Of a stretch of DNA of 64,000 nucleotides, positions 28,199 through 38,210 are shown one piece after another. Each line of letters begins with the position of its first letter. Position 1 is the first letter of the stretch. The stretch comes from Nitrospirillum viridazoti CBAmc (GTDB lineage Bacteria; Pseudomonadota; Alphaproteobacteria; Azospirillales; Azospirillaceae). The stretch lies in contig NZ_CP022110.1 in the NCBI RefSeq assembly GCF_000730165.1, positions 1,309,501 to 1,373,500 on the forward strand, written 5' to 3'. A program made the translations under genes and the position numbers. The notes beneath the pieces were generated by a model. It ran no database searches and was not told the DNA's origin. It saw only the letters and a program-made list of their open reading frames with translations.

Positions 28199-28501
28199 AT
28201 GAGCAACCAGGACGATATCGACGCCATGTTCGGCGGTGGCGGCGCCACCATGTCATCGGCCCCCGAACTGTCGGCCATCTATGACACGGTGGTGGAGGTA
28301 TCGGTGGTGCTGGGCACCTCCACCATCCGCGTGCGCGACCTGCTGAAGCTGGGCCGCGGCGCCATCGTGGAACTGGACCGCAAGATCGACGACCTGTCCG
28401 ACATCATCGTTTCCGGCCGCACCGTCGGCCGGGGCGAGGTCACCATCGTCGAGGACAAGATCGCCGTGACCTTCCGCGAGTTCACGCGGGTGAACGGCTG
28501 A
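28199..28501 (+). CDS. fliN: Flagellar motor switch protein FliN, solitary gene
   Basis: FliN forms part of the C-ring of the flagellar motor and sets rotation direction with FliM and FliG. The 100-residue product has a short acidic N-terminus (SNQDDIDAMFGGGG) followed by a SpoA/FliN domain (VEVSVVLGTSTIRVRDLLKL, GAIVELDRKIDD, VDxxVxG-like IIVSGRTVGRGEV and VTF). No other flagellar gene is nearby. It may be the only FliN of the motor or an accessory copy. It lies next to a c-di-GMP synthase gene. Confidence 0.88.
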   Translation: MSNQDDIDAMFGGGGATMSSAPELSAIYDTVVEVSVVLGTSTIRVRDLLKLGRGAIVELDRKIDDLSDIIVSGRTVGRGEVTIVEDKIAVTFREFTRVNG

Positions 28502-28552
28502 TGTCGTTCACCTGAGAACCAGGGCCTGAGAACCAGGGGAGGGGCGGGGCAC

Positions 28553-28996
28553 ATGATGGCGGACGGCGGCGCGGTGGAGACAGGTACGGAGGGCTGGGCC
28601 CTGTGCCCCGTGACCCCCGGCTTCATCGCCCATATCGGCCCCTTCTGGGAGGGCCGGCCGGCTCGCGGCGGCGGGGATGGCGGCTGGGTCCGCGCCTTCG
28701 TGGCGGATGAACGTCATTTGGCCGGCACGGGCCAGATCCACACCTCCGTCCTCTCATCCTTCGCCGAGCTGGTCTGTCTGCGCGCCATCAGCGACGAAGG
28801 CGTGCCGGAGGGGGAGGCGGTGCTGCTGAACCTGACCCTGAACCACCTGGGCAGCGGTCCGCGCGGCACCCTGGTGCAGGGTGAGGCGCGGCTGATCCGC
28901 CGCAACTGGTCCCAGCTGGTGACCGAGGTCCGCATCCACGACGGCGACCGTCCCCTGGTGGCCGGCACCGCCCTGTGGAGCCTGGCCGGCGCCTGA
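28553..28996 (+). CDS. PaaI-type hotdog thioesterase-like protein
   Basis: The 147-residue protein resembles the acyl-CoA thioesterase superfamily. Supporting segments are FIAHIGPFW near the N-terminus, RHLAGTGQIHTSVLSSFAE (the hotdog central-helix region with an Asp/Glu-like active position) and LNLTLNHLGSGPRGTLVQGEARLIRR (strands). Substrate unknown. Two ATGs (28553 and 28556) are adjacent. The gene converges on the giant repeat gene with 33 nt between stops. Confidence 0.72.
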   Translation: MMADGGAVETGTEGWALCPVTPGFIAHIGPFWEGRPARGGGDGGWVRAFVADERHLAGTGQIHTSVLSSFAELVCLRAISDEGVPEGEAVLLNLTLNHLGSGPRGTLVQGEARLIRRNWSQLVTEVRIHDGDRPLVAGTALWSLAGA

Positions 28997-29029
28997 GAGC
29001 CGCCCTTCGTCCCCTTTCGGTCCTCAGGC

Positions 29030-32000
29030 TCAGGACGTGCGGGCCGTCTGCCACGCGTTGGTCTGGTCCGAGGTGAACACGCCCAGCTGGTCGCCGCTGA
29101 AGGCGTTGGCCTGGTCTGACGACATCGCCACGATCTGATCGGTGCTGAAGCCCGGGATTTGGTCGGTGGTAAACATCGGCACCTGGCTGACCGTGAACTC
29201 CCGGATGTCGTCCGTGGTCAGGGCGCTGATCTGCGTCGTGCTCAGGGCGTCGATCTGGGTGCTGTTCAGCAGAGCGACCTGGGTGCCGGTGAGCGCCGAC
29301 AGGTTGCCGGTGCTGAGGCCCGCCAACTGCGCCGTGGTCAAGGCCGTCACCTGCGCCGGCGTCAGGTTCACGATGCGGTCGGTGGCCAGGGCGTCCAGCT
29401 GCGCCGTGCCCAGCGCCTTCACCTGGGCCAGCGACAGGCCGGAGACCTGGGTGGTGGTCAGCGCCGCCGCCTGGGCGGTGGTGAGGGCCCCGACCTGCGC
29501 CGTGCTCAAGCCCGCCACCTGCGTCGCCGTCAGGGTCGACACGTCGTCCGTGGTCAGGGCGGATATCTGGCTGGTGGTCAGCGCGCCCAGCTGGCTGGCG
29601 GACAATTCGCGGATATCGGCGGTGGACAGCGCGATCAACTGGCTGGTGGTCAGCGCCTGGATCTGCGCCGTGGTCAGCACGGTGGCCTGCGGGCCGCTCA
29701 ATGCCGACAGGTTGTCGGTATCCAGACCCGATATTTGCGCCGTGGTCAGCGCGGCGATGAGGGTGGGCGACAGGCCCCTGATTTGCGACGTGCTCAACGC
29801 GTTCAACTGGTCGGTGCTGAGCGTCTGGATCTGGGTGGCCGACAGGCTGCTCAGCTGCGTGTTGCTCAGCGCCGTCAGCACCGTGGTGCTGAGGCCGGAG
29901 AGCTGCGCCGTCGTCAGGGCGGCCAGCTGCGTGGCGGACAGCGCGCGGGCGTCGCCGGTCGACAGGGCGTTCAACTGGTCGGTGTTGAGCGTCTTGACCT
30001 GGGTGGCCGACAGGCCGGCCACCTGGGCCGTCGTCAGACCGCCGATTTGGGCGGTGGTCAGGGCGCCGACCTGCGCCGTGGTCAGCGCCGCGGTCTGGGT
30101 GGTGGTCAGGGCCGCGACGTGGGTGGTGTCCAGGGCCGACAGCTGGCTGGTGGTCAGCAGGGCGACCTGGGCCGCCGTGAACTCGGTGACGTCCGATGTG
30201 GTCAGGGCGTTCAGCTGACCGGTGCCCAGCGACTGCAGCTGGGCGCTGGTCAGGCTGTTGACCTGCGTGGCGCTCAAGGCCGACAGGTTGTCGGTGCTGA
30301 AGCCGGCGATCTGGTCGGTGGACAGGGCGGTCAGCTGGGTGGCGGTCAGGGCGCGGGCGTCGGCGGTGGACAGCGCGTCCAGCTGGTCGGTGGACAGCAC
30401 CTTGACCTGGGCGGCGGTCAGGTTGGACACCTGGGTGCTGCTCAGGGCCTGCAGGAAGTCGGTGCCCAGGCCGCTTACCTGATCGGTGCCCAGGCTGCTC
30501 AGTTGCGTCGCCGTCAGGGCCCGCGTGTCCGCCGTGGGCAGGGCGTTCAGCTGGTCGGTGCCCAGGGCGTGCAGCTGCAGGGTGGTCAGGCTGGCCACTT
30601 GGCTGGTGGTCAGGGTGGACAGGAAGGAGATGCCGAGGCCACTGATCTGGTCCGTGGTCAGGGCGGCGACCTGGGTGCCCGTCAGCGTCCGCACCGTGTC
30701 GGAGCTCAGCGCGTTGATCTGGTCGGTGGACAGCACCTTGACCTGGGCGGCCGACAGGCTGGTGACCTGCGCCGTCGTCAACACCCCCACCTGGCCGGTG
30801 GTCAGGGCGCTGACCTGGGCCGTGGTCAGGCTGGGCACCTGGCTGGTTGACAGGGCGGCCAACTGGTCGGTGCCCAGGACGGACAGCTGCGCCGTGGTCA
30901 GTTGGCCCACCTGGGCCGCGGAGAACTCACGCACGTCGGCGGTGGTCAGGCTGTTCAGCTGGCCGGTGGTCAGGGCCTGCACCTGGGCGCTGTTCAGGGT
31001 GCCCACCTGTGTGGCGCTGAGCGCCGACAGGGCGTCGCTGCCCAGGCTGGCGACCTGGGCGGTGGTCAAGGCCTGGACCTGGGTGGCGGTCAGGGCGCGG
31101 GCGTCGGCGGTGGGCAGGGTGTTCAGCTGGTCGGACGTCAGCACCTTGATCTGCGCGGCCGACAGGTTGCTGATCTGCGTGGTGCTGAGTGTCGCCAGGA
31201 AGCTGGTGCTGAGCTGGGACACCTGGGCGGTGGTCAGGGCCTGGATCTGCGTGGCGGTCAGGGCGCGGGCGTCGGCCGAGGAGAGGGTGTTCAGCTGGTC
31301 CGTGGTCAGCGAGGCCACCTGCGTCGCCGTCAGGCTGCCTACCTGGGCGGTGGTCAGCGCCGACAGGTTGGTGGTGCTGAGGCCCGCCAGCTGGGCCGTG
31401 GACAGGGCGGCCACCTGCGTGCCCGTCAGCGTCCGCACCGTGTCGGTGCTGAGCGCGTCCAGCTGGTCGGTGGTCAGGGCCTTGACCTGGGTGGCGGTCA
31501 GGCTGGAGACCTGGGCGGTCGTCAGGGTGGCCACTTGGTCGGTGGTCAGGGTGTTCAGCTGGGCGGTCGTCAGGCCGCCGATCTGGGTGGCCGACAGGGC
31601 GGTCAGCTGGGACGTGCCCAGGGCGGACAGCTGGGCCGTGGTCAGCTGCCCCACCTGGGTGGCGCTGAACTCACCGATGTCGGCGGTACTCAGGCTGTTC
31701 AGCTGGGTGCTGGTCAGGGCCTGGATCTGGGCGCTGCTCAGGCTGGGCACCTGGGCGCTGCTGAAGGCCGCCAGGTTGGCGGTGCCCAGGGCGGCGATCT
31801 GCGCCGTCGATAGGAAGCCGACCTGGGTCCCCGACAGCTCGCGGATATCCGCCGTGGACAGGCTGTTCAGCTGGTCGGTGGTCAGTGACCGGATCTGGGC
31901 GGAGGTCAGGCCGGCCACCTGCGTGGCGTTCAGCGCCGACAGGGCGTCGCTGCTGAGCGCCGCCACCTGGTTGGTGGTCAGGGCCGTCACCTGGGTGGCG

Positions 32001-35000
32001 GTCAGGGCGCGGGCGTCGGCCGTGGGCAGGGTGCCCAGCTGATCGGTGGTCAGGGCCTTGACCTGGGTGGCCGACAGGCTGGCCACCTGGGTGCTGCTCA
32101 AGGCCGTCAGGAAGCTGGTGCCCAGCGCCGCCACCTGGGCGGTGCTGAGGCTGGTCAGTTGCAGGGACGTCAGGGCCCGTGCTTCCGCCGTCGACAGGGT
32201 GTTCAGCTGGTCGGTGGTCAAGGCGCCCACCTGGGCCGCCGTCAGGCTGACCACCTGGGCCGTGGTCAGTGCCGTCAGCGTGCCGGTGGCCAGGCCCGCC
32301 ACCTGCGTGGTGGTCAGGGCCGACACCTGGGTGGCCGTCAGCTTCTGCAGGTTGGCGGTGGGCAGGGCCGACAGCTGGTCGGTCGTCAGCGCCTTGACCT
32401 GAGTGGCCGACAGGGTGACCAGCTGCGCCGTGCTCAGGGCTGCCACCTGGTCGGTGGTCAGGGCCCCCACCTGGGCGGTGGTGAGGCCGGTCAGCTGCAG
32501 GGAGGTCAGCGCCGTCAGCTGGCTGGTGCCCAGCGCGGACAGCTGCGCGGTGGTGAGCGCCCCCACCTGGGTGGCGCTGAGCTCCCGCACATCGGCGGTG
32601 GTCAGCGCGTTCAGTTGGTCGGTGGTGAGCGATCGGATCTGGGCGCTGGTCAGGCTGGGCACCTGGGTGCTGCTGAGCGCCGACAGGTTGGCGGTGCCCA
32701 GGCCGGACACCTGGTCCGTCGTCAAGCTCGCCACCTGGGCGGCTGAAAACTCGCGGATATCGGCGGAGGTCAGGCTGTTGAGCTGGTCGGTGGTGAGGGC
32801 CTTGACCTGGGTGCTGGTCAGGCCCGTCACCTGGGTGGCGCTCAGCGCCGAAAGGGCGTCGCTGCCCAGGGCGGACAGTTGCGCGGTGGACACGGCCGCC
32901 AGCTGGGTGGCCGTCAGGGCGCGGGCGTCGGCGGTCGACAGCGTGCCCAGCTGGTCCGTGGTCAGCGCCCGCACCTGGGCGGTGGTCAGGGCCGCGACCT
33001 GGGCGGTGCTTAGCGCCGCCAGAGTGTCGGTCCGCAGGCCGGCGACCTGGGCGGTGGTCAGGGCCGCGATCTGGCCCGGCGCGAATTCCCTGAGGTCGGC
33101 GGCCCCCAGCGCGTTCAGCTGGTCGGTCGTCAGCGACTGGACCTGCGCGTTGGTCAGCTTCTGCACCTGCGCACTGTTGAGCGCGGACAGGGCGTCGGTG
33201 CCCAGCGTGGCGATCTGCCCCGTGGTCAGGCCGGGAATCTGGAGAGAGGTGAGGGCGCGCAAGTCCGCCGTGGTCAGGGCGGACAGCTGGTCCGACGTGA
33301 GGGTGCGCAGCTGGGCCGTGGTCAGGTTGGCGACCTGGTTGGTGCTGAGCGCCGCCAGCGCGTCGCTGCCCAGGCCCGCCACCTGATTGGTGGACAGCTG
33401 GCTCACCTGCGTCGCGGTGAATTCGCGGATGTCGGCGGAACTCAGCGCGTTCAGCTGGTCGGTGGTCAGGGCGCGGATTTGCAGGCTGCCCAGCACGGCC
33501 ACCTGCGCGCTGTTCAGCGCCGACAGGTTGTCGGTGGACAGACCGGCGATCTGCGCCGTGGTCAGCGCCGCCACCTGGGCCGGCGTCAGCTTCTGCACCG
33601 ATGCCGTGCCTAGGGCGCTGAACTGGTCCGAACCCAGGCCCTTCAGCTGCACGGCCGTCAGGCTGGCCAGCTGGGCAGTGTTCAGGGCCGCGACCTGGTC
33701 GGTGGTCAGCGCCGCCACCTGGGTCGAGGTCAGGCCCGTCAGCTGCGCTGTGGTCAGCGCCGCCACATTGTCGGTATCCAGCGTGGCGATCTGCGCTGTG
33801 CTGAGCGCCGTCACCTGGGTGGCGGCGAATTCCCGCACATCGGCGGTGGTCAGGCCGTTCAGCTGGTCCGTCGTCAGGGCGCGGACCTGGGCGGTCGACA
33901 GCTTCTGCACCTGGGCGCTGGTCAGGGCTGACAGGTTGCCGGTGCTGAGGCCGGCGATCTGTGCCGTGGTCAGGGCGGTCAGCTGGATGCTGGACAGCGT
34001 TCGCACCGCGGCCGTGCCCAACGCGTCCAGCTGGTCGGTCGACAACGCCTTGACCTGGTTGGCCGAGAGGTTCGCCACCTGCGCCGTCGTCAGTCCCGCG
34101 ACCTGGTCGGTGCCCAGGGCCGCCACCTGGGCGGTGCTCAACGCCGACGTCTGGATGGTAGTCAGGGCGGCCAAATTCCCGGTGCTGAGGCCCGAGATCT
34201 GCGCGGTGGTGAGGGCCGCCACCTGCAGGCTGGTGAATTCCCGGACATCGGCCGTGGTCAGGCTGTTCAGCTGATCGGTGGTCAGCGCCTTGACCTGGGC
34301 GGTGGAGAAGGCGGCGACCTGGATGGAACTGAGCGTCGACAGCACATTGCTGGTCAGGAAGGGAACTTGGCCGGTGCCTAGCGCCGACAGCTGTGTCACC
34401 GACAGGGCCTTGGCGTCGGCCGTGGACAGGGCCGACAGCTGGTCCGAGGTGAGCGAGCGGATCTGCGCCGTGGTCAGGCCCGCCACCTGCGTGGTGGTGA
34501 GGGCGGCCACGGCGTCCGTCGTCAGGCCGGCGGTCTGGCCGGTGCTCAGGGACGCGATCTGGGTGGCGCTGAATTCCCGGATGTCGGCGGTGGTCAGCGA
34601 CGCTAGCTGGTCGGTTGTCAGGGCCTTGACCTGGGCGGCGGTCAGGCTGGTCGTCTGCGTGCTGTTCAGGGCTGACAGGTTGTCAGAGCCCAGGCCCGCC
34701 AGCTGGGCCGTTGTCAAGCCGCTCAGCTGCGTGACGGTCAGGGCGCGGATGTCGGCGGTGGACAGGGCCGCCAACTGGTCGGTGGTCAGGGCGCCGATCT
34801 GCGCCTTGCTGAATTCCTGGATGTCGGCAGTAGTGAGGGCGGACAGCTGATCCGTGGTCAGCGCCTGTATCTGGTTGGAGGTGAGGCCGGCGACCTGGGT
34901 GGATTTCAGGGCCTTGAAATCGTCCGTACCCAACGCCGTGATGTCGGCTTCGCTGAACGCCTGCAGCTGAGTCGCGCTGAACACCATTTGGCTGACCTGG

Positions 35001-35143
35001 AAGGCCGCCGCCTGCTGCGTCGTCATCGCCTTGATTTGGGCGGTCGTCAGCGCCTGGACGTCCTGCGTCGTCAGCCGCTGGATGTTCGTGGTCGTGATGG
35101 CGGCGAACTGCGCCGGCGTCAGAAGACCGATCTGCGAAACCAT
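29030..35143 (-). CDS. Giant octapeptide-repeat protein (2037 residues)
   Basis: The whole protein is built from an 8-residue unit, roughly x-Q-[VIL]-x-x-L-[TSG]-[TS]. From residue 3 to 2033 I count 253 octads and a single 7-residue unit (SQMVFSA, 51-57), with no other phase change. Octads group into modules of 7 (56 residues) or 10 (80 residues), each opening with an Asp/Arg-type octad such as ADIREFSA and closing with DQLNALST-like octads. A 10-7-7-7 block of 248 residues occurs twice in succession (1154-1401, 1402-1649). I see no Cys or Tyr, one Trp (near the C-terminus) and two His. No signal peptide, membrane helix or other domain is visible. GGAGG lies 5 nt before the ATG. T-x-x-Q fits an N-capping box, so a superhelix of short helices is plausible (inference). 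Function unknown. Confidence 0.9.
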   Translation of the reverse strand: MVSQIGLLTPAQFAAITTTNIQRLTTQDVQALTTAQIKAMTTQQAAAFQVSQMVFSATQLQAFSEADITALGTDDFKALKSTQVAGLTSNQIQALTTDQLSALTTADIQEFSKAQIGALTTDQLAALSTADIRALTVTQLSGLTTAQLAGLGSDNLSALNSTQTTSLTAAQVKALTTDQLASLTTADIREFSATQIASLSTGQTAGLTTDAVAALTTTQVAGLTTAQIRSLTSDQLSALSTADAKALSVTQLSALGTGQVPFLTSNVLSTLSSIQVAAFSTAQVKALTTDQLNSLTTADVREFTSLQVAALTTAQISGLSTGNLAALTTIQTSALSTAQVAALGTDQVAGLTTAQVANLSANQVKALSTDQLDALGTAAVRTLSSIQLTALTTAQIAGLSTGNLSALTSAQVQKLSTAQVRALTTDQLNGLTTADVREFAATQVTALSTAQIATLDTDNVAALTTAQLTGLTSTQVAALTTDQVAALNTAQLASLTAVQLKGLGSDQFSALGTASVQKLTPAQVAALTTAQIAGLSTDNLSALNSAQVAVLGSLQIRALTTDQLNALSSADIREFTATQVSQLSTNQVAGLGSDALAALSTNQVANLTTAQLRTLTSDQLSALTTADLRALTSLQIPGLTTGQIATLGTDALSALNSAQVQKLTNAQVQSLTTDQLNALGAADLREFAPGQIAALTTAQVAGLRTDTLAALSTAQVAALTTAQVRALTTDQLGTLSTADARALTATQLAAVSTAQLSALGSDALSALSATQVTGLTSTQVKALTTDQLNSLTSADIREFSAAQVASLTTDQVSGLGTANLSALSSTQVPSLTSAQIRSLTTDQLNALTTADVRELSATQVGALTTAQLSALGTSQLTALTSLQLTGLTTAQVGALTTDQVAALSTAQLVTLSATQVKALTTDQLSALPTANLQKLTATQVSALTTTQVAGLATGTLTALTTAQVVSLTAAQVGALTTDQLNTLSTAEARALTSLQLTSLSTAQVAALGTSFLTALSSTQVASLSATQVKALTTDQLGTLPTADARALTATQVTALTTNQVAALSSDALSALNATQVAGLTSAQIRSLTTDQLNSLSTADIRELSGTQVGFLSTAQIAALGTANLAAFSSAQVPSLSSAQIQALTSTQLNSLSTADIGEFSATQVGQLTTAQLSALGTSQLTALSATQIGGLTTAQLNTLTTDQVATLTTAQVSSLTATQVKALTTDQLDALSTDTVRTLTGTQVAALSTAQLAGLSTTNLSALTTAQVGSLTATQVASLTTDQLNTLSSADARALTATQIQALTTAQVSQLSTSFLATLSTTQISNLSAAQIKVLTSDQLNTLPTADARALTATQVQALTTAQVASLGSDALSALSATQVGTLNSAQVQALTTGQLNSLTTADVREFSAAQVGQLTTAQLSVLGTDQLAALSTSQVPSLTTAQVSALTTGQVGVLTTAQVTSLSAAQVKVLSTDQINALSSDTVRTLTGTQVAALTTDQISGLGISFLSTLTTSQVASLTTLQLHALGTDQLNALPTADTRALTATQLSSLGTDQVSGLGTDFLQALSSTQVSNLTAAQVKVLSTDQLDALSTADARALTATQLTALSTDQIAGFSTDNLSALSATQVNSLTSAQLQSLGTGQLNALTTSDVTEFTAAQVALLTTSQLSALDTTHVAALTTTQTAALTTAQVGALTTAQIGGLTTAQVAGLSATQVKTLNTDQLNALSTGDARALSATQLAALTTAQLSGLSTTVLTALSNTQLSSLSATQIQTLSTDQLNALSTSQIRGLSPTLIAALTTAQISGLDTDNLSALSGPQATVLTTAQIQALTTSQLIALSTADIRELSASQLGALTTSQISALTTDDVSTLTATQVAGLSTAQVGALTTAQAAALTTTQVSGLSLAQVKALGTAQLDALATDRIVNLTPAQVTALTTAQLAGLSTGNLSALTGTQVALLNSTQIDALSTTQISALTTDDIREFTVSQVPMFTTDQIPGFSTDQIVAMSSDQANAFSGDQLGVFTSDQTNAWQTARTS
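30197..31684 (-). repeat. Tandem 744-bp repeat (two 31-octad blocks) inside the giant repeat gene
   Basis: Two successive blocks, 31684-30941 (residues 1154-1401) and 30940-30197 (1402-1649), share the same order of modules: one 10-octad then three 7-octad modules. Marker octads match at the same places (ADIGEFSA/ADVREFSA, DTVRTLTG/DTVRTLTG, ADARALTA/ADTRALTA, ADARALTA/ADARALTA). This implies block duplication on top of the 24-bp unit. Confidence 0.8.
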
Positions 35144-35674
35144 ACCCACCTCCGACCGCATCTCTTTGAGACGCTTCGTATTCGGCGTAAACCCACACCC
35201 CTTCTGGGTGTCGCCACGGACCGGTGGCGATGACGTCCGCCTTTTCCCCCGCCCCCTACTGGATGCCCGGGAAAAGGTACTGAGACACGGATCACCCCGG
35301 CGCCCCTTTGGGGTCGCCATGACCGGGCGACGCGATGCCAATCACAGGATTGCATTCAAGGGATGAATGTATCCGTTTTTGTAGTGCTTCGCATCCACGA
35401 ATGCACGGGGCGGCTTAGTGCCGCGCAAGAGGCGCAAAGGGATGGGATGGTCGGCGGCCGCGGCCGCCGGCGGACCAAAAAAAACGCCGGCTGTCTCGAA
35501 GACAGCCGGCGAAGATGAAGGGAGCCTCATAAGGAGGTTGAAGGCTTGAGAGTGTCAAATCCGTCACGGTCAAGCCCCTCCTATATAGCTCCGACGCTGA
35601 TTGATGAAAAGTTAAAAAACCGTGGCAAGCGTGTCACACTTCAAAAAACTGACCTCATGGTTAACCCCAAAGGC
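35144..35674. other. 531-nt intergenic region upstream of the giant repeat gene
   Basis: No gene is supported. On the minus-strand leader of the repeat gene there are two adjacent hairpins: ACACCC/GGGTGT (35195-35211) and TCGCCAC/GTGGCGA (35211-35230). A further hairpin, CATTCA/TGAATG, lies at 35353-35369. A strong minus-strand terminator lies at 35476-35511. The promoter of the giant gene should lie between about 35230 and 35475. Confidence 0.6.
35476..35511 (-). terminator. Strong minus-strand rho-independent terminator
   Basis: The 11-bp stem CGCCGGCTGTC / GACAGCCGGCG (35485-35511) is followed on the minus strand by eight T residues. It ends transcripts coming from the Crp-type gene (stop at 35675) or from an RNA starting in between, and insulates the giant gene. 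Confidence 0.88.
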
Positions 35675-36367
35675 TCAGTCGCCGCGCACTTCCTCCACCA
35701 TCTCCTCCAATCGGGCGAAGTCGCGGACGAGAAGGGAGTTGTCCTGGCGGATGACCAACTTGTCGCGCGACAGGTCGCCCAGCACGCGGGCGACCGTTTC
35801 GCGGGTGGTGCTGACCCGGGCGGCGATGTCGCTGTGAATCGGGATGGGGGAGATGGCGGCGGTGTTGTCGCCCTTCAGGTTGGGCTTGGCCAGGCGCAGC
35901 AACTCCGCGTGCACCCGGTTGTTGGCGCCCAGGGTCGACAAATCCATGATCCGTCCGGTGGCGGAACGAACGATGCTGGCCAGGCGGGTCATGACGCCCC
36001 AGGCGATGGTGGGGTTTTGGGTCACCACCTGCTGGAACAGGCGCGGCGACATGAAGGCGACCATGACCTCGCTCAGCGCCACGATGCTGGCCGATCGCGC
36101 CTCGCCGTCGATAGCGGACAGTTCACCCAGATAGCCGCCGGCCTCCACATCGTCGAAGGTGACCTCGCGGCCGGAGAGGGAGTAGTTTACCACCCGCACC
36201 CGGCCCTCGACGATGAAGCAGACGTCTCGGCTGTCCGACGCGCGGTCGATCACCTGTTCCTGCGGGTGGAAATGGCGCCAGCTGCATTGCTTGGCCAGGC
36301 TGGCGCGCTGGTCGGCCGTCAGGGGGGCCAGCAGTTCGATGCTGTCGAGGGACGCGGCTTCGATCAC
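35675..36367 (-). CDS. Crp/Fnr-family transcriptional regulator (Crp-like)
   Basis: The 230-residue protein has an N-terminal cyclic-nucleotide-binding barrel and a C-terminal winged helix. The barrel contains the phosphate-binding cassette GELSAIDGEARSAS (with the Glu, Arg and Ser that contact cAMP), and the helix-turn-helix reads SDIAARVSTTRETVARVLGDL. It lacks the N-terminal Cys cluster of oxygen-sensing FNR and is therefore Crp-like rather than an oxygen sensor. I start it at GTG 36367, with GGAG 8 nt upstream; the frame is open further upstream but unlike the family. It may control the PKS operon or the repeat gene (inference). Confidence 0.88.
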   Translation of the reverse strand: MIEAASLDSIELLAPLTADQRASLAKQCSWRHFHPQEQVIDRASDSRDVCFIVEGRVRVVNYSLSGREVTFDDVEAGGYLGELSAIDGEARSASIVALSEVMVAFMSPRLFQQVVTQNPTIAWGVMTRLASIVRSATGRIMDLSTLGANNRVHAELLRLAKPNLKGDNTAAISPIPIHSDIAARVSTTRETVARVLGDLSRDKLVIRQDNSLLVRDFARLEEMVEEVRGD

Positions 36368-36563
36368 GGGGTGGGCTCCGGATAGGGGCGTTTGCGGCGT
36401 GGCTGCCGGTCCGGCATCCGCGCCCGGCCCCCACACAGATCCGGGGGCCTTGCTCAAGGGCTGGCCGGACAATAACGATCCGCGCGCCCGCCGTAAACGG
36501 CCCCACGCCTTTTGGTGGCGGCTGTTAACCAAAGAGGGGGAGGCCTCGGAGCCGGGCCGGCGC

Positions 36564-37091
36564 TCAGGGGTGCGCCGTCGCCCCCCGCCGGGGGGCCAGC
36601 GCCGTCTCCTCCACCCGGATGCGGTGGGCCAGCAGCAGGGCATTGGCGATAGAGAAGATCAGGGCCAGGTGCCAGGCGCCGAAGGCCAGGGGCACGGTCG
36701 CGATCTCCGCCACCACCACGCAGTAATTGGGATGCCGCACCCAGCGGAAGGGGCCGCCCTGGATCAGCGGGGCTTGAGGCAGTGTGATGATGCGGGTTGT
36801 CCAATAAGGGCCCAGGGTGCGGATGACCCAATAGCGCGCCAGTTGCAGGGGGATCAGCAGGGCCACCAGGGGCCAGACGATGGGCGCGTCGGCCGGGACG
36901 AACAGGAACAGTGCGGCCAGCCAGGCGCTGTGCAACACGATGAACAGCGGGTAGTGCGCCCGCCCCACCTCCTGGCCGCCCTGGGCCAGCAGGCGGCGGG
37001 TGTTGCGATTGGCCACCCGCAGCTCCGCCAGGCGCTGCACGGCCAGCAGCAGGACCACGATTTGCGGGGGGCCGAAAGCGAGTCCGTCCAT
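36564..37091 (-). CDS. Isoprenylcysteine-carboxylmethyltransferase-family membrane methyltransferase
   Basis: The 175-residue protein has four to five transmembrane helices and the ICMT signature GPFRWVRHPNYCVV followed by an essential-looking RIRVEE near the C-terminus. It would use S-adenosylmethionine to methylate a lipophilic substrate. The gene starts 3 nt after the stop of the type III polyketide synthase, exactly the arrangement of Bacillus bpsA-bpsB, where the ICMT-like partner O-methylates alkylpyrones. Methylation of an alkylpyrone or alkylresorcinol is therefore the best guess. Confidence 0.87.
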   Translation of the reverse strand: MDGLAFGPPQIVVLLLAVQRLAELRVANRNTRRLLAQGGQEVGRAHYPLFIVLHSAWLAALFLFVPADAPIVWPLVALLIPLQLARYWVIRTLGPYWTTRIITLPQAPLIQGGPFRWVRHPNYCVVVAEIATVPLAFGAWHLALIFSIANALLLAHRIRVEETALAPRRGATAHP

Positions 37092-37094
37092 GGC

Positions 37095-38210
37095 TTAGAA
37101 CCGCATCAGGCCCAGGGCGGCGATGAAGCCGGGCCCCAGGGCGGACAGGAGGTGCAGGCCCCGCGCGCCCTGGCGCACGCGGCGCTCCAGCACGAACAGC
37201 ACGGTCGCGGCCGACATATTGCCATGCTGGCGCAGCACGTCGCGGGCGTCCGCCAGCCCATCGGTGGCCGGGGCCAAAACCTCCTCCAGCGCGTCCAGCA
37301 CCTTGGTGCCGCCGGGATGGCAGATGGTTCCGGCCAGATCGGACAGCGTCATGCGCTGGCGATCCAGGAAGCCGGCCACCACCTCGGGCAGTTTCTCCCG
37401 CACCAGGGTGGGGATGCTCTGGGCGAAGATGACGCCCATGCCGTCGTCCTCCACCTGCCAGCCCATGATGCCCAGGCTGTCGGGCCAGCGGTGCTCCGCC
37501 GACGCCAGGAAGGCGGGGGCCCCCTCATGGTTCGCGTCGCGGCCTTTGGGATCCGCGCGCAGGATGGCCGCGGCACCGCCGTCGCCGAACAGGGCGGTTG
37601 CGATGACGTTGGCCTTGGACAAATCGCCCCGGCGGAAGCTGAGGGCGCACAGCTCCACCACCAGCAGCAGGACATTGGCGCCGGGCCGGGCGGTGGCCCA
37701 GGTGGCGGCCCGCGCCAGGCCCAGCACGCCGCCGGCGCAGCCCAGGCCGAACAGGGGCATGCGCTCCACATCCGCCCTCATGCCCAGGCGCTGCATGATC
37801 AGCGCGTCCAGGCTGGGCGTGGCGATGCCGGTGGAGGAGACGGCGACGATGGCGTCCACGTCTGTGGGTTTCAGGCCCGCCTGGTCCAGCGCCTGGGTGG
37901 TGGCGCGGGCCAGCACGTCGACCGCGTGCTCCAGGTACAGCCTGTTGCGCTCCGCCCAGCCGTGCGGCTCCAGATACCATTCCAGCGGCACGCAGGAGGC
38001 GCGGCCCTCGATGCCGGCATGGGTGAAGACGGGCGCCAGCCGGTCGAAATCGCGCAGCCGGTGGGCGAAGACCTGGCGGGCACCGGCCAGCGCCTGCTCC
38101 TGCGTCAGGCGGTAGGGGGGCAGGGCGGTGGCGATGGACAGCAGACGGGCGGGCGCCGGCGGGGTGGGCAGCGGGGTATTGGATGTGGGTGCGGCGCTGG
38201 CCATGGTCAT
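37095..38210 (-). CDS. Type III polyketide synthase (chalcone/stilbene-synthase fold)
   Basis: The 371-residue enzyme should condense an acyl-CoA starter with malonyl-CoA units. The catalytic triad is intact: Cys158 in FGLGCAGGVLGLA, His298 in ICHPGGTK and Asn331 in HGNMSA. Other family marks are SSTGIATPSLDA and ALFGDGGAAA. With the downstream ICMT-like gene it forms a two-gene operon. Bacterial homologues make alkylpyrones or alkylresorcinols, membrane-modifying phenolic lipids in Azotobacter cysts and in Bacillus and Streptomyces. AAGGA precedes the ATG at 38210; ATG 38204 is an alternative. Confidence 0.93.
   Translation of the reverse strand: MTMASAAPTSNTPLPTPPAPARLLSIATALPPYRLTQEQALAGARQVFAHRLRDFDRLAPVFTHAGIEGRASCVPLEWYLEPHGWAERNRLYLEHAVDVLARATTQALDQAGLKPTDVDAIVAVSSTGIATPSLDALIMQRLGMRADVERMPLFGLGCAGGVLGLARAATWATARPGANVLLLVVELCALSFRRGDLSKANVIATALFGDGGAAAILRADPKGRDANHEGAPAFLASAEHRWPDSLGIMGWQVEDDGMGVIFAQSIPTLVREKLPEVVAGFLDRQRMTLSDLAGTICHPGGTKVLDALEEVLAPATDGLADARDVLRQHGNMSAATVLFVLERRVRQGARGLHLLSALGPGFIAALGLMRF

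Follow-up and report, generated by a model that had tools for sequence, protein, structure and literature searches.

This locus raises the question of what is encoded by a gene whose product consists almost entirely of octapeptides, and of what is carried by the order in which these octapeptides follow one another. The window analysed is a stretch of 64,000 nucleotides from Nitrospirillum viridazoti CBAmc (contig NZ_CP022110.1, positions 1,309,501 to 1,373,500), and the gene, an ALTTAQ-repeat gene of the group A paralogue, lies at 29030–35143 on its minus strand, on which all of the gene features given below are located. The open frame runs from an ATG at 35143 to a stop codon at 29030–29032 and encodes 2037 residues; its start and length are kept in three other strains, and its product matches the Pfam family PF20080 with 1202 bits. 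The original prediction had given the coordinates correctly and had omitted the strand; the plus-strand reading of the same interval is interrupted by several stops, and a gene on that strand was rejected. The answer proposed here, to which we give about an even chance, is that the sequence carries the twist of a superhelix of 3.45 octads per turn, kept in phase over ∼71 turns, and that evolution of length mainly by whole turns keeps a charged strip and a Thr/Ser strip (a landing track for a dedicated O-glycosyltransferase) aligned along a rod of tens of nanometres.

The octad register was obtained by an independent segmentation, which gave 253 octads, the first starting at residue 3 and the last ending at residue 2033, with a sole break at residues 51–57. 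Six N-terminal octads (residues 3–50, 34994–35137; also covered by an AlphaFold2 model of residues 1–192) are followed by a single seven-residue unit, SQMVFSA (residues 51–57, 34973–34993), and by 247 octads in uninterrupted register (residues 58–2033, 29045–34972), in which segmentation and spectrum reveal a second-order period of 3.45 octads. The final ten residues are TNAWQTARTS (29033–29062); on comparison of C-termini, an NAW or EAW ending was also found in the paralogues and in L022 (relatives are designated by L numbers). Residue identity at a lag of eight was 0.353, compared with a mean of 0.122 and a maximum of 0.149 in 1000 residue shuffles, and the 17 highest lags up to 139 were all multiples of 8, in agreement with the predicted dominance of an eight-residue period. 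The number of octads, their limits and the single slip had likewise been read correctly, but the strict pattern x-Q-[VIL]-x-x-L-[TSG]-[TS], which had been ascribed to all 253 octads, occurs at 137 places only; these share one register throughout, and the remaining octads are in register with substitutions. The protein (205 kDa, pI 4.2) contains one Trp, two His and, as had been noted, neither Cys nor Tyr.

Superimposed on the octads is a longer rhythm. Octad-to-octad identity peaked at separations of 7, 14, 17, 24, 31 and 38 octads, all close to multiples of a period that is not an integer. When residue indicators for 246 octads were subjected to Fourier analysis, this period was placed at a frequency of 0.2899 per octad, corresponding to 3.449 octads or 27.6 residues, with a peak mean power of 11.5, whereas none of 300 octad shuffles, which were scored on a coarser frequency grid, exceeded 2.52. 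The second and third harmonics of this period, aliased, account for the next two peaks (0.4200 and 0.1303). Values of 3.43–3.46 octads were obtained from five segments that overlap and span 82 octads each, and the phases of eight consecutive blocks of ∼31 octads deviated by −15 to +19° from the overall phase. When the octads were arranged by phase, DQLNALTT-like octads were found in a sector near 120°, ADARALTA-like octads with 1.84 charged residues and 1.53 Thr plus Ser per octad in a sector at 210–240°, and TQVAALTT octads with 0.00 charged residues and 3.24 Thr plus Ser per octad in a sector at 300–330°.

The same period was found in relatives. Of 24 representatives chosen among the proteins fetched, the window protein included, 21 showed a peak at 0.28–0.30 per octad above all 40 of their octad shuffles, the misses being L024 (with its runs pooled), L045 and L047; the peak of L081, which offers only a 44-octad run, lies at the band edge (3.57), leaving 20 of the 24 at 3.38–3.46 octads. 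The median of 21 values, with L024 included and L045, L047 and L081 left out, was 3.41 octads (range 3.38–3.46). The strongest overall peak lies elsewhere, often at a two-octad rhythm or near a harmonic, in L023, L041, L043, L045, L047, L055, L057, L080 and L083. Charge followed the period above the shuffles of the chain itself in 20 of 29 chains, close orthologues being counted and L013 being too short to enter. As a separate observation, a two-octad (16-residue) alternation replaces or accompanies the 3.4-octad period in L042, L043, L044, L045, L046, L047 and L053.

Structure prediction with AlphaFold2 was performed on two parts of the chain. The slice of residues 378–705 (33029–34012; 328 residues, 11 sequences) was modelled with a mean predicted local distance difference test score (pLDDT) of 95.0 and a predicted template-modelling score (pTM) of 0.84 and contained 41 helices for 41 octads; a gapped 22-sequence alignment with distant members was excluded from modelling. 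Residues 1–192 were modelled with a pLDDT of 91.8 and a pTM of 0.84, with a drop in confidence solely in the last 20 residues; here, a three-residue helix at 50–52 overlaps the seven-residue unit, where confidence is undiminished. In the slice, octad position 7 is the first residue of 39 of the 41 helices; the N-cap is accordingly position 6 (Thr, Ser, Gly, Asn or Asp), and the Gln at position 1 is residue N3. On these models each octad very probably forms one short helix, and the originally predicted helix with a capping box in every octad is borne out by them. That these helices are strung into a long rod is the somewhat favoured reading for the whole protein. The suggestion of a superhelix fared well in so far as the 27.6-residue second period fits one, and from the sequence periodicity we consider it likely that 3.45 octads make up one superhelical turn.

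The mechanism that we propose would combine these elements as follows. Each octad would form one helix, mostly of five or six residues, with Thr or Ser at position 6 as the N-cap and the near-invariant Gln at position 1 as its capping-box partner; 3.45 octads (27.6 residues, ∼104° per octad) would complete one turn of the superhelix; and the charged and Thr/Ser sectors, which are neighbours, would become straight strips along one long thin rod. A rise of 2.8–4 Å per octad, taken from compact toy models, would give a rod of ∼70–100 nm, which is a guess. Changes in length would then survive mainly as whole turns, because other lengths would rotate the strips out of line.

Length differences between orthologues and the lengths of tandem units were compared with this proposal. 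Among complete orthologues, length differences of 24 octads (L028 and L050) and of a net 17 octads (L050 and L067; 24 against 7) were found for the second paralogue, and one of 45 octads (L029 and L071) for the third. Between the window gene and the copy L072 in genome G349 the difference is 24 octads, seen as one gap when aligned via L011 and as five pieces when aligned directly; between the window gene and the copy L073 in genome G350 it is one seven-octad gap, before the contig of L073 ends; L072 and L073 are taken as orthologues of the window gene because both adjoin the same conserved upstream RNA-like element. Tandem units measure 24 octads in L023, L025 and L049, 38 in L029 and 62 (also 31) in L022. 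The resulting eight lengths (indels of 24, 17, 45, 24 and 7 octads; units of 24, 38 and 62 octads) miss a whole number of turns by 0.039 turn on average, compared with 0.251 expected, and none of 200,000 draws was as good; p was 1.2 × 10−4 for the indels alone and 9 × 10−4 for the units alone. For the test the period was set at 3.44 octads, a median taken over six proteins; the null consisted of uniform lengths of 2–70 octads, and the net 17 was that from L050 and L067. Comparisons between paralogues (L029–L072 and L071–L072) and with a frame lacking the repeat-protein start (L067–L069) were left out, and their gaps included pieces of 1, 2 and 6 octads; L029–L074 (with gaps of 7, 3, 4 and 10 octads up to the end of the contig) and L028–L067 (24, 10, 4 and 3) were not entered as such.

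The tandem units also lend themselves to a different explanation, in which the 3.45-octad rhythm is a structurally meaningless fossil of repeated segmental duplication by 7, 24, 31 or 38 octads. The identity peaks at 7, 14, 17, 24, 31 and 38 octads would be expected from such duplications, strong units of 24, 38 and 62 octads do exist, with mean identities of 0.79–0.91 at those lags in L023, L029 and L022, and homologous pairing of similar octads would favour duplication lengths that keep the phase even without selection on the protein. However, duplication lengths that differ from protein to protein fit one and the same non-integer period, the little-duplicated L027 and L013 show the period above shuffles, and L024 shows it in its longest run alone, although not with runs pooled. 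In the window protein, moreover, no block strays more than 19° from the overall phase, even though octads at the best lags are only ∼0.50–0.56 identical. We regard the duplication fossil as unlikely.

Several results weigh against a superhelix with phase-keeping length changes. The period used in the whole-turn test was derived partly from the proteins tested, and aligners split some of the gaps into pieces of 1–4, 7 and 10 octads totalling 17 or 24. The nine chains that missed the charge test are the distant members L041–L048 and L053, several of which have a two-octad rhythm or no clear 3.4 period. In the AlphaFold2 model the helix lengths showed no significant period, 24% of shuffles reaching the peak. 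Toy backbone scans yielded right-handed compact superhelices that scored best at ∼2.4–3.0 octads per turn, 3.3–3.6 being possible at a lower score; as they allow 3.45 without favouring it, they were excluded from the support. Confident yet unrealistic AlphaFold2 models of beta-solenoids for repeat sequences have been described in the available part of PMC11795689; this caution is weakened here by the helical nature of the model and by a related chain of solved structure, but it still stands.

The window gene is under purifying selection. The ratio of nonsynonymous to synonymous substitution rates (dN/dS) relative to the window gene was 0.20, 0.20 and 0.33 for three orthologues, and the alignment with them had no internal indel, its only gap being due to two additional C-terminal residues in one strain. 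Resolved by octad position, omega was at most 0.01 for the Gln at position 1 and 0.07–0.12 for the Leu at position 5, with positions 0, 3 and 6 being the freest. The strong selection for a regular fold that had been predicted is in keeping with these values, and a misassembly, which the original prediction had named as a possible refutation, is unlikely because three other Nitrospirillum strains encode proteins of 2037, 2037 and 2039 residues without an internal gap. The selection values also make it extremely improbable that the gene is a functionless repetitive frame grown by slippage: lengths do vary among paralogues and more distant orthologues, but selection of this strength, concentrated on the octad Gln and Leu, and the lack of internal indels in three orthologues speak against it. 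An N-terminal alignment of 11 rows, the other paralogues among them, has the seven-residue unit at the same site throughout, with SQMVF kept in 11 of 11 rows and the next Ser in 10 of 11; in L022 a seven-residue break follows the ninth octad, and the register of L021 is lost in the same neighbourhood.

Relatives at 95, 95 and 76% identity were found in N. amazonense BR 11880, BR 12005 and BR 11622, respectively, and one at 37% identity in Caulobacter sp. Root343. The source genome contains two further members with open frames of 3324 and 3477 codons. An N-terminal probe gave three matches in each of six of the seven genomes of the genus and none in the seventh. With strict single-repeat limits, each count including the source genome and being a lower bound, ALTTAQ members were present in at least 14 of 82 genomes of the taxonomic family (E limit 1 × 10−11), at least six of 289 of the class (1 × 10−8) and at least eight of 398 of the phylum (1 × 10−9); among plasmids, the family was found in 64 of 72,556 records. 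Two further observations concern possible outliers: a plasmid of a Spiroplasma endosymbiont (CP117533.1, 13387–14448, hit H84) carries octad-like repeats at 27% identity in 11 places, which are possible relatives, and in Pseudomonas asturiensis (L060, 10004–17295) the repeat region is annotated as three successive frames.

What the Thr/Ser strip might be for is suggested by gene neighbourhoods. Thirteen hand-picked plasmid records were viewed, of which Rhizobium lusitanum is unannotated, leaving 12 to be counted; the closeness of GT41 genes was assessed without a formal control. In eight of these (Cereibacter, Rhodovastum, two Pseudomonas, Rhizobium daejeonense, Pseudorhizobium, Pseudoroseomonas and Rhizobium CCGE532) the repeat gene has a gene for a GT41 glycosyltransferase close by, which Pfam confirmed as PF13844 with TPR; HlyD and ABC transporter genes are close to it in four of the 12. 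Among genomes, GT41 genes lie near the third paralogue of the source genome (L029), L022 and L023; L023 is also adjoined by ABC and HlyD genes and L025 by an ABC gene. Mere presence of GT41 in a genome was rejected as evidence: 80 of the 82 genomes of the taxonomic family carry it, so that closeness alone counts. In the source genome, however, GT41 genes are sparse, with six domain matches in three frames over 7.4 Mb. HlyD and ABC genes beside the gene for a type I substrate are usual, although not obligatory. In the relatives, Thr and Ser would be O-glycosylated in the cytoplasm by the partner GT41 enzyme with TPR, in the manner of FlmG acting on flagellins, and export of the glycosylated rod, through a type I system in several lineages, would then yield a fibre or spacer at the cell surface. 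Of the Nitrospirillum paralogues, it is the third that has GT41 next to it; the window protein would depend on enzymes whose genes lie elsewhere in the genome.

Against glycosylation and export it has to be set that annotation names no GT41 in the other four plasmid records (Shinella, Roseateles, Thioclava and Polaromonas), where Pfam was run on one Shinella protein only, without a match, and that no GT41 or type I secretion gene (HlyD, ABC) is present among the tested neighbours of the window gene. Those with a Pfam match encode a P-type ATPase, a uracil-DNA-glycosylase-like protein, a GGDEF protein, a thioesterase, a Crp/Fnr regulator, an ICMT methyltransferase and a type III polyketide synthase. 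Because they show neither function, glycosylation and export of the window protein rest on the paralogue and the relatives, and by this analogy an exported, glycosylated surface fibre has slightly less than an even chance. The tested neighbours of the window gene, with their roles in metal transport, signalling, methyl transfer and polyketide synthesis, would suit an intracellular scaffold or spacer that is never exported or glycosylated, as would the lack of a signal peptide recognizable by eye (neither a signal peptide nor a membrane helix was noticed by eye or in the Pfam scan, and no dedicated predictor was used). The absence of Cys and the acidic pI, on the other hand, suit an exported protein, and relatives in several lineages adjoin GT41 and HlyD/ABC/TolC genes; we consider the scaffold rather unlikely. 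Still less probable is that the uncharged Thr/Ser sector binds ice, a mineral or a polysaccharide instead of carrying glycans. It is straight and offers about three Thr plus Ser and almost no charge per octad, and some relatives are annotated as ice nucleation proteins, probably through similar low-complexity octads; but no ice-nucleation family is among the seven Pfam families listed, Thr/Ser does not track the period above shuffles in many members, and the GT41 neighbours favour glycosylation.

Other genes near repeat genes were recorded. FlhB is encoded close to L021 with a histidine kinase between them, and flagellar genes are annotated near the repeat genes of Rhodovastum and Pseudorhizobium (places noted: L021, 16734–17846; L056, 1–6090; L078, 5687–9697); some members may use or serve the flagellar system. 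Sugar-nucleotide genes comprise, by annotation, a UDP-glucuronic acid decarboxylase (L082, 3248–4222) and UDP-galactopyranose mutases (L078, 17541–18698; L083, 3513–4670), and, judged by their first residues only, epimerase-like frames (L022, 14563–15504; L049, 15618–16577); these may point to the donor sugar.

Upstream of the gene, a Shine–Dalgarno-like GGAGGT (35148–35153) lies 4 nt 5′ of the ATG and is the same in three of four aligned strains, the fourth having GGGGGT; no sigma-70-like promoter match was found within 28500–36700. A candidate small RNA (35478–35585, minus strand) between the Crp/Fnr gene and the repeat gene is nearly invariant in four strains. Its predicted fold has an energy of −48.6 kcal/mol (z = −5.4), with a strong terminator at 35511–35485, and it holds ACCUCCUU, which is anti-Shine–Dalgarno-like; it had no Rfam match. 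Of 39 genomes from five genera, 16 contain similar DNA, and one of these 16 gave no match to the repeat-gene probe. Further upstream, the genes for the Crp/Fnr regulator, the ICMT methyltransferase and the type III polyketide synthase are consecutive on the minus strand (35675–38210), an ordinary-looking cluster.

If the proposed reading is true, a repeat family found without a described function would be a readable molecular ruler, with pitch, faces and permitted length changes all legible from sequence; indels in a solenoid would be filtered by rotational phase, and protein fibres that are straight and one-sided would have a natural template. The neighbourhoods with GT41 suggest in addition that several lineages of proteobacteria possess a system by which such rods are O-glycosylated and exported.

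The comparison with known systems begins with Pfam. The ALTTAQ repeat (PF20080) matched the window protein with 1201.9 bits, compared with a gathering score of 26.4, over 78 stretches and was found again in the genome scan; it shares the octad in the same register. Its model has only 38 positions and is thereby unable to describe a coherent 3.45-octad period along the whole chain. Matches to CAAP1, DUF4351, LRR_EndoS, Sigma70_r4_2 and others were put down to composition, since the score of the ALTTAQ profile is more than ten times theirs, and the single NCBIfam match listed was far under its cutoff. The unit of leucine-rich repeats contains a beta strand and about 20–29 residues; such proteins make up most of the other PDB sequence matches listed (E = 8 × 10−7 and weaker) and were rejected as composition effects, the model here having one helix per octad and no strand. 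Ice nucleation proteins are also an octapeptide family, and their profile was not among the seven Pfam families listed up to an E value of 10. A phage origin was rejected, two records of one phage matching at 26% identity over 8% of the query. The plasmid relatives (Cereibacter, Pseudomonas, Rhizobium and others; the 25 listed of the 64 records) match at 37–45% identity with 91–100% query cover and are annotated as large exoproteins (heme utilization or adhesion), ice nucleation proteins or hypothetical proteins; in contrast to the window gene, several of them belong to loci with GT41 and type I secretion genes.

The closest PDB sequence is HeliScrew4 (9zem, 120 residues; E = 2.7 × 10−15), which aligns without gaps over 108 residues with residues 460–567 and has octads such as LTPEQIAAL; it differs in being short and in having Pro at N1 and many charged residues. 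Judged from its name and sequence, it is probably a designed protein; no paper under that name was found in the open-licence literature, and a solenoid design paper considered as a link was set aside, the string ‘screw’ being absent from the accessible portion of PMC12775518. That the repeat is already a family in Pfam, and that the structure of a relative with a designed look has been solved, had not been foreseen in the original prediction. The octad itself is thus not new, the family being known to Pfam and a related chain solved. No recognizable paper on the ALTTAQ family was found in the open-licence literature, which was judged by titles and has most subscription journals outside it; to judge from that literature, there is no earlier description of the second-order period or its phase coherence, of indels by whole turns or of the neighbourhoods with GT41. 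For glycosylation, the nearest system is FlmG of Caulobacter, described in the available text of PMC7591256 as a protein of 596 residues with N-terminal TPR and a C-terminal glycosyltransferase that O-glycosylates flagellins in the cytoplasm before their export. The substrate here would be a repeat rod and not a flagellin, and the link between enzyme and substrate is read from gene neighbourhood alone; the likeness lies in the GT41 neighbours, which combine TPR with PF13844, and FlmG serves as a working analogy for them and not as a case of substrate homology.

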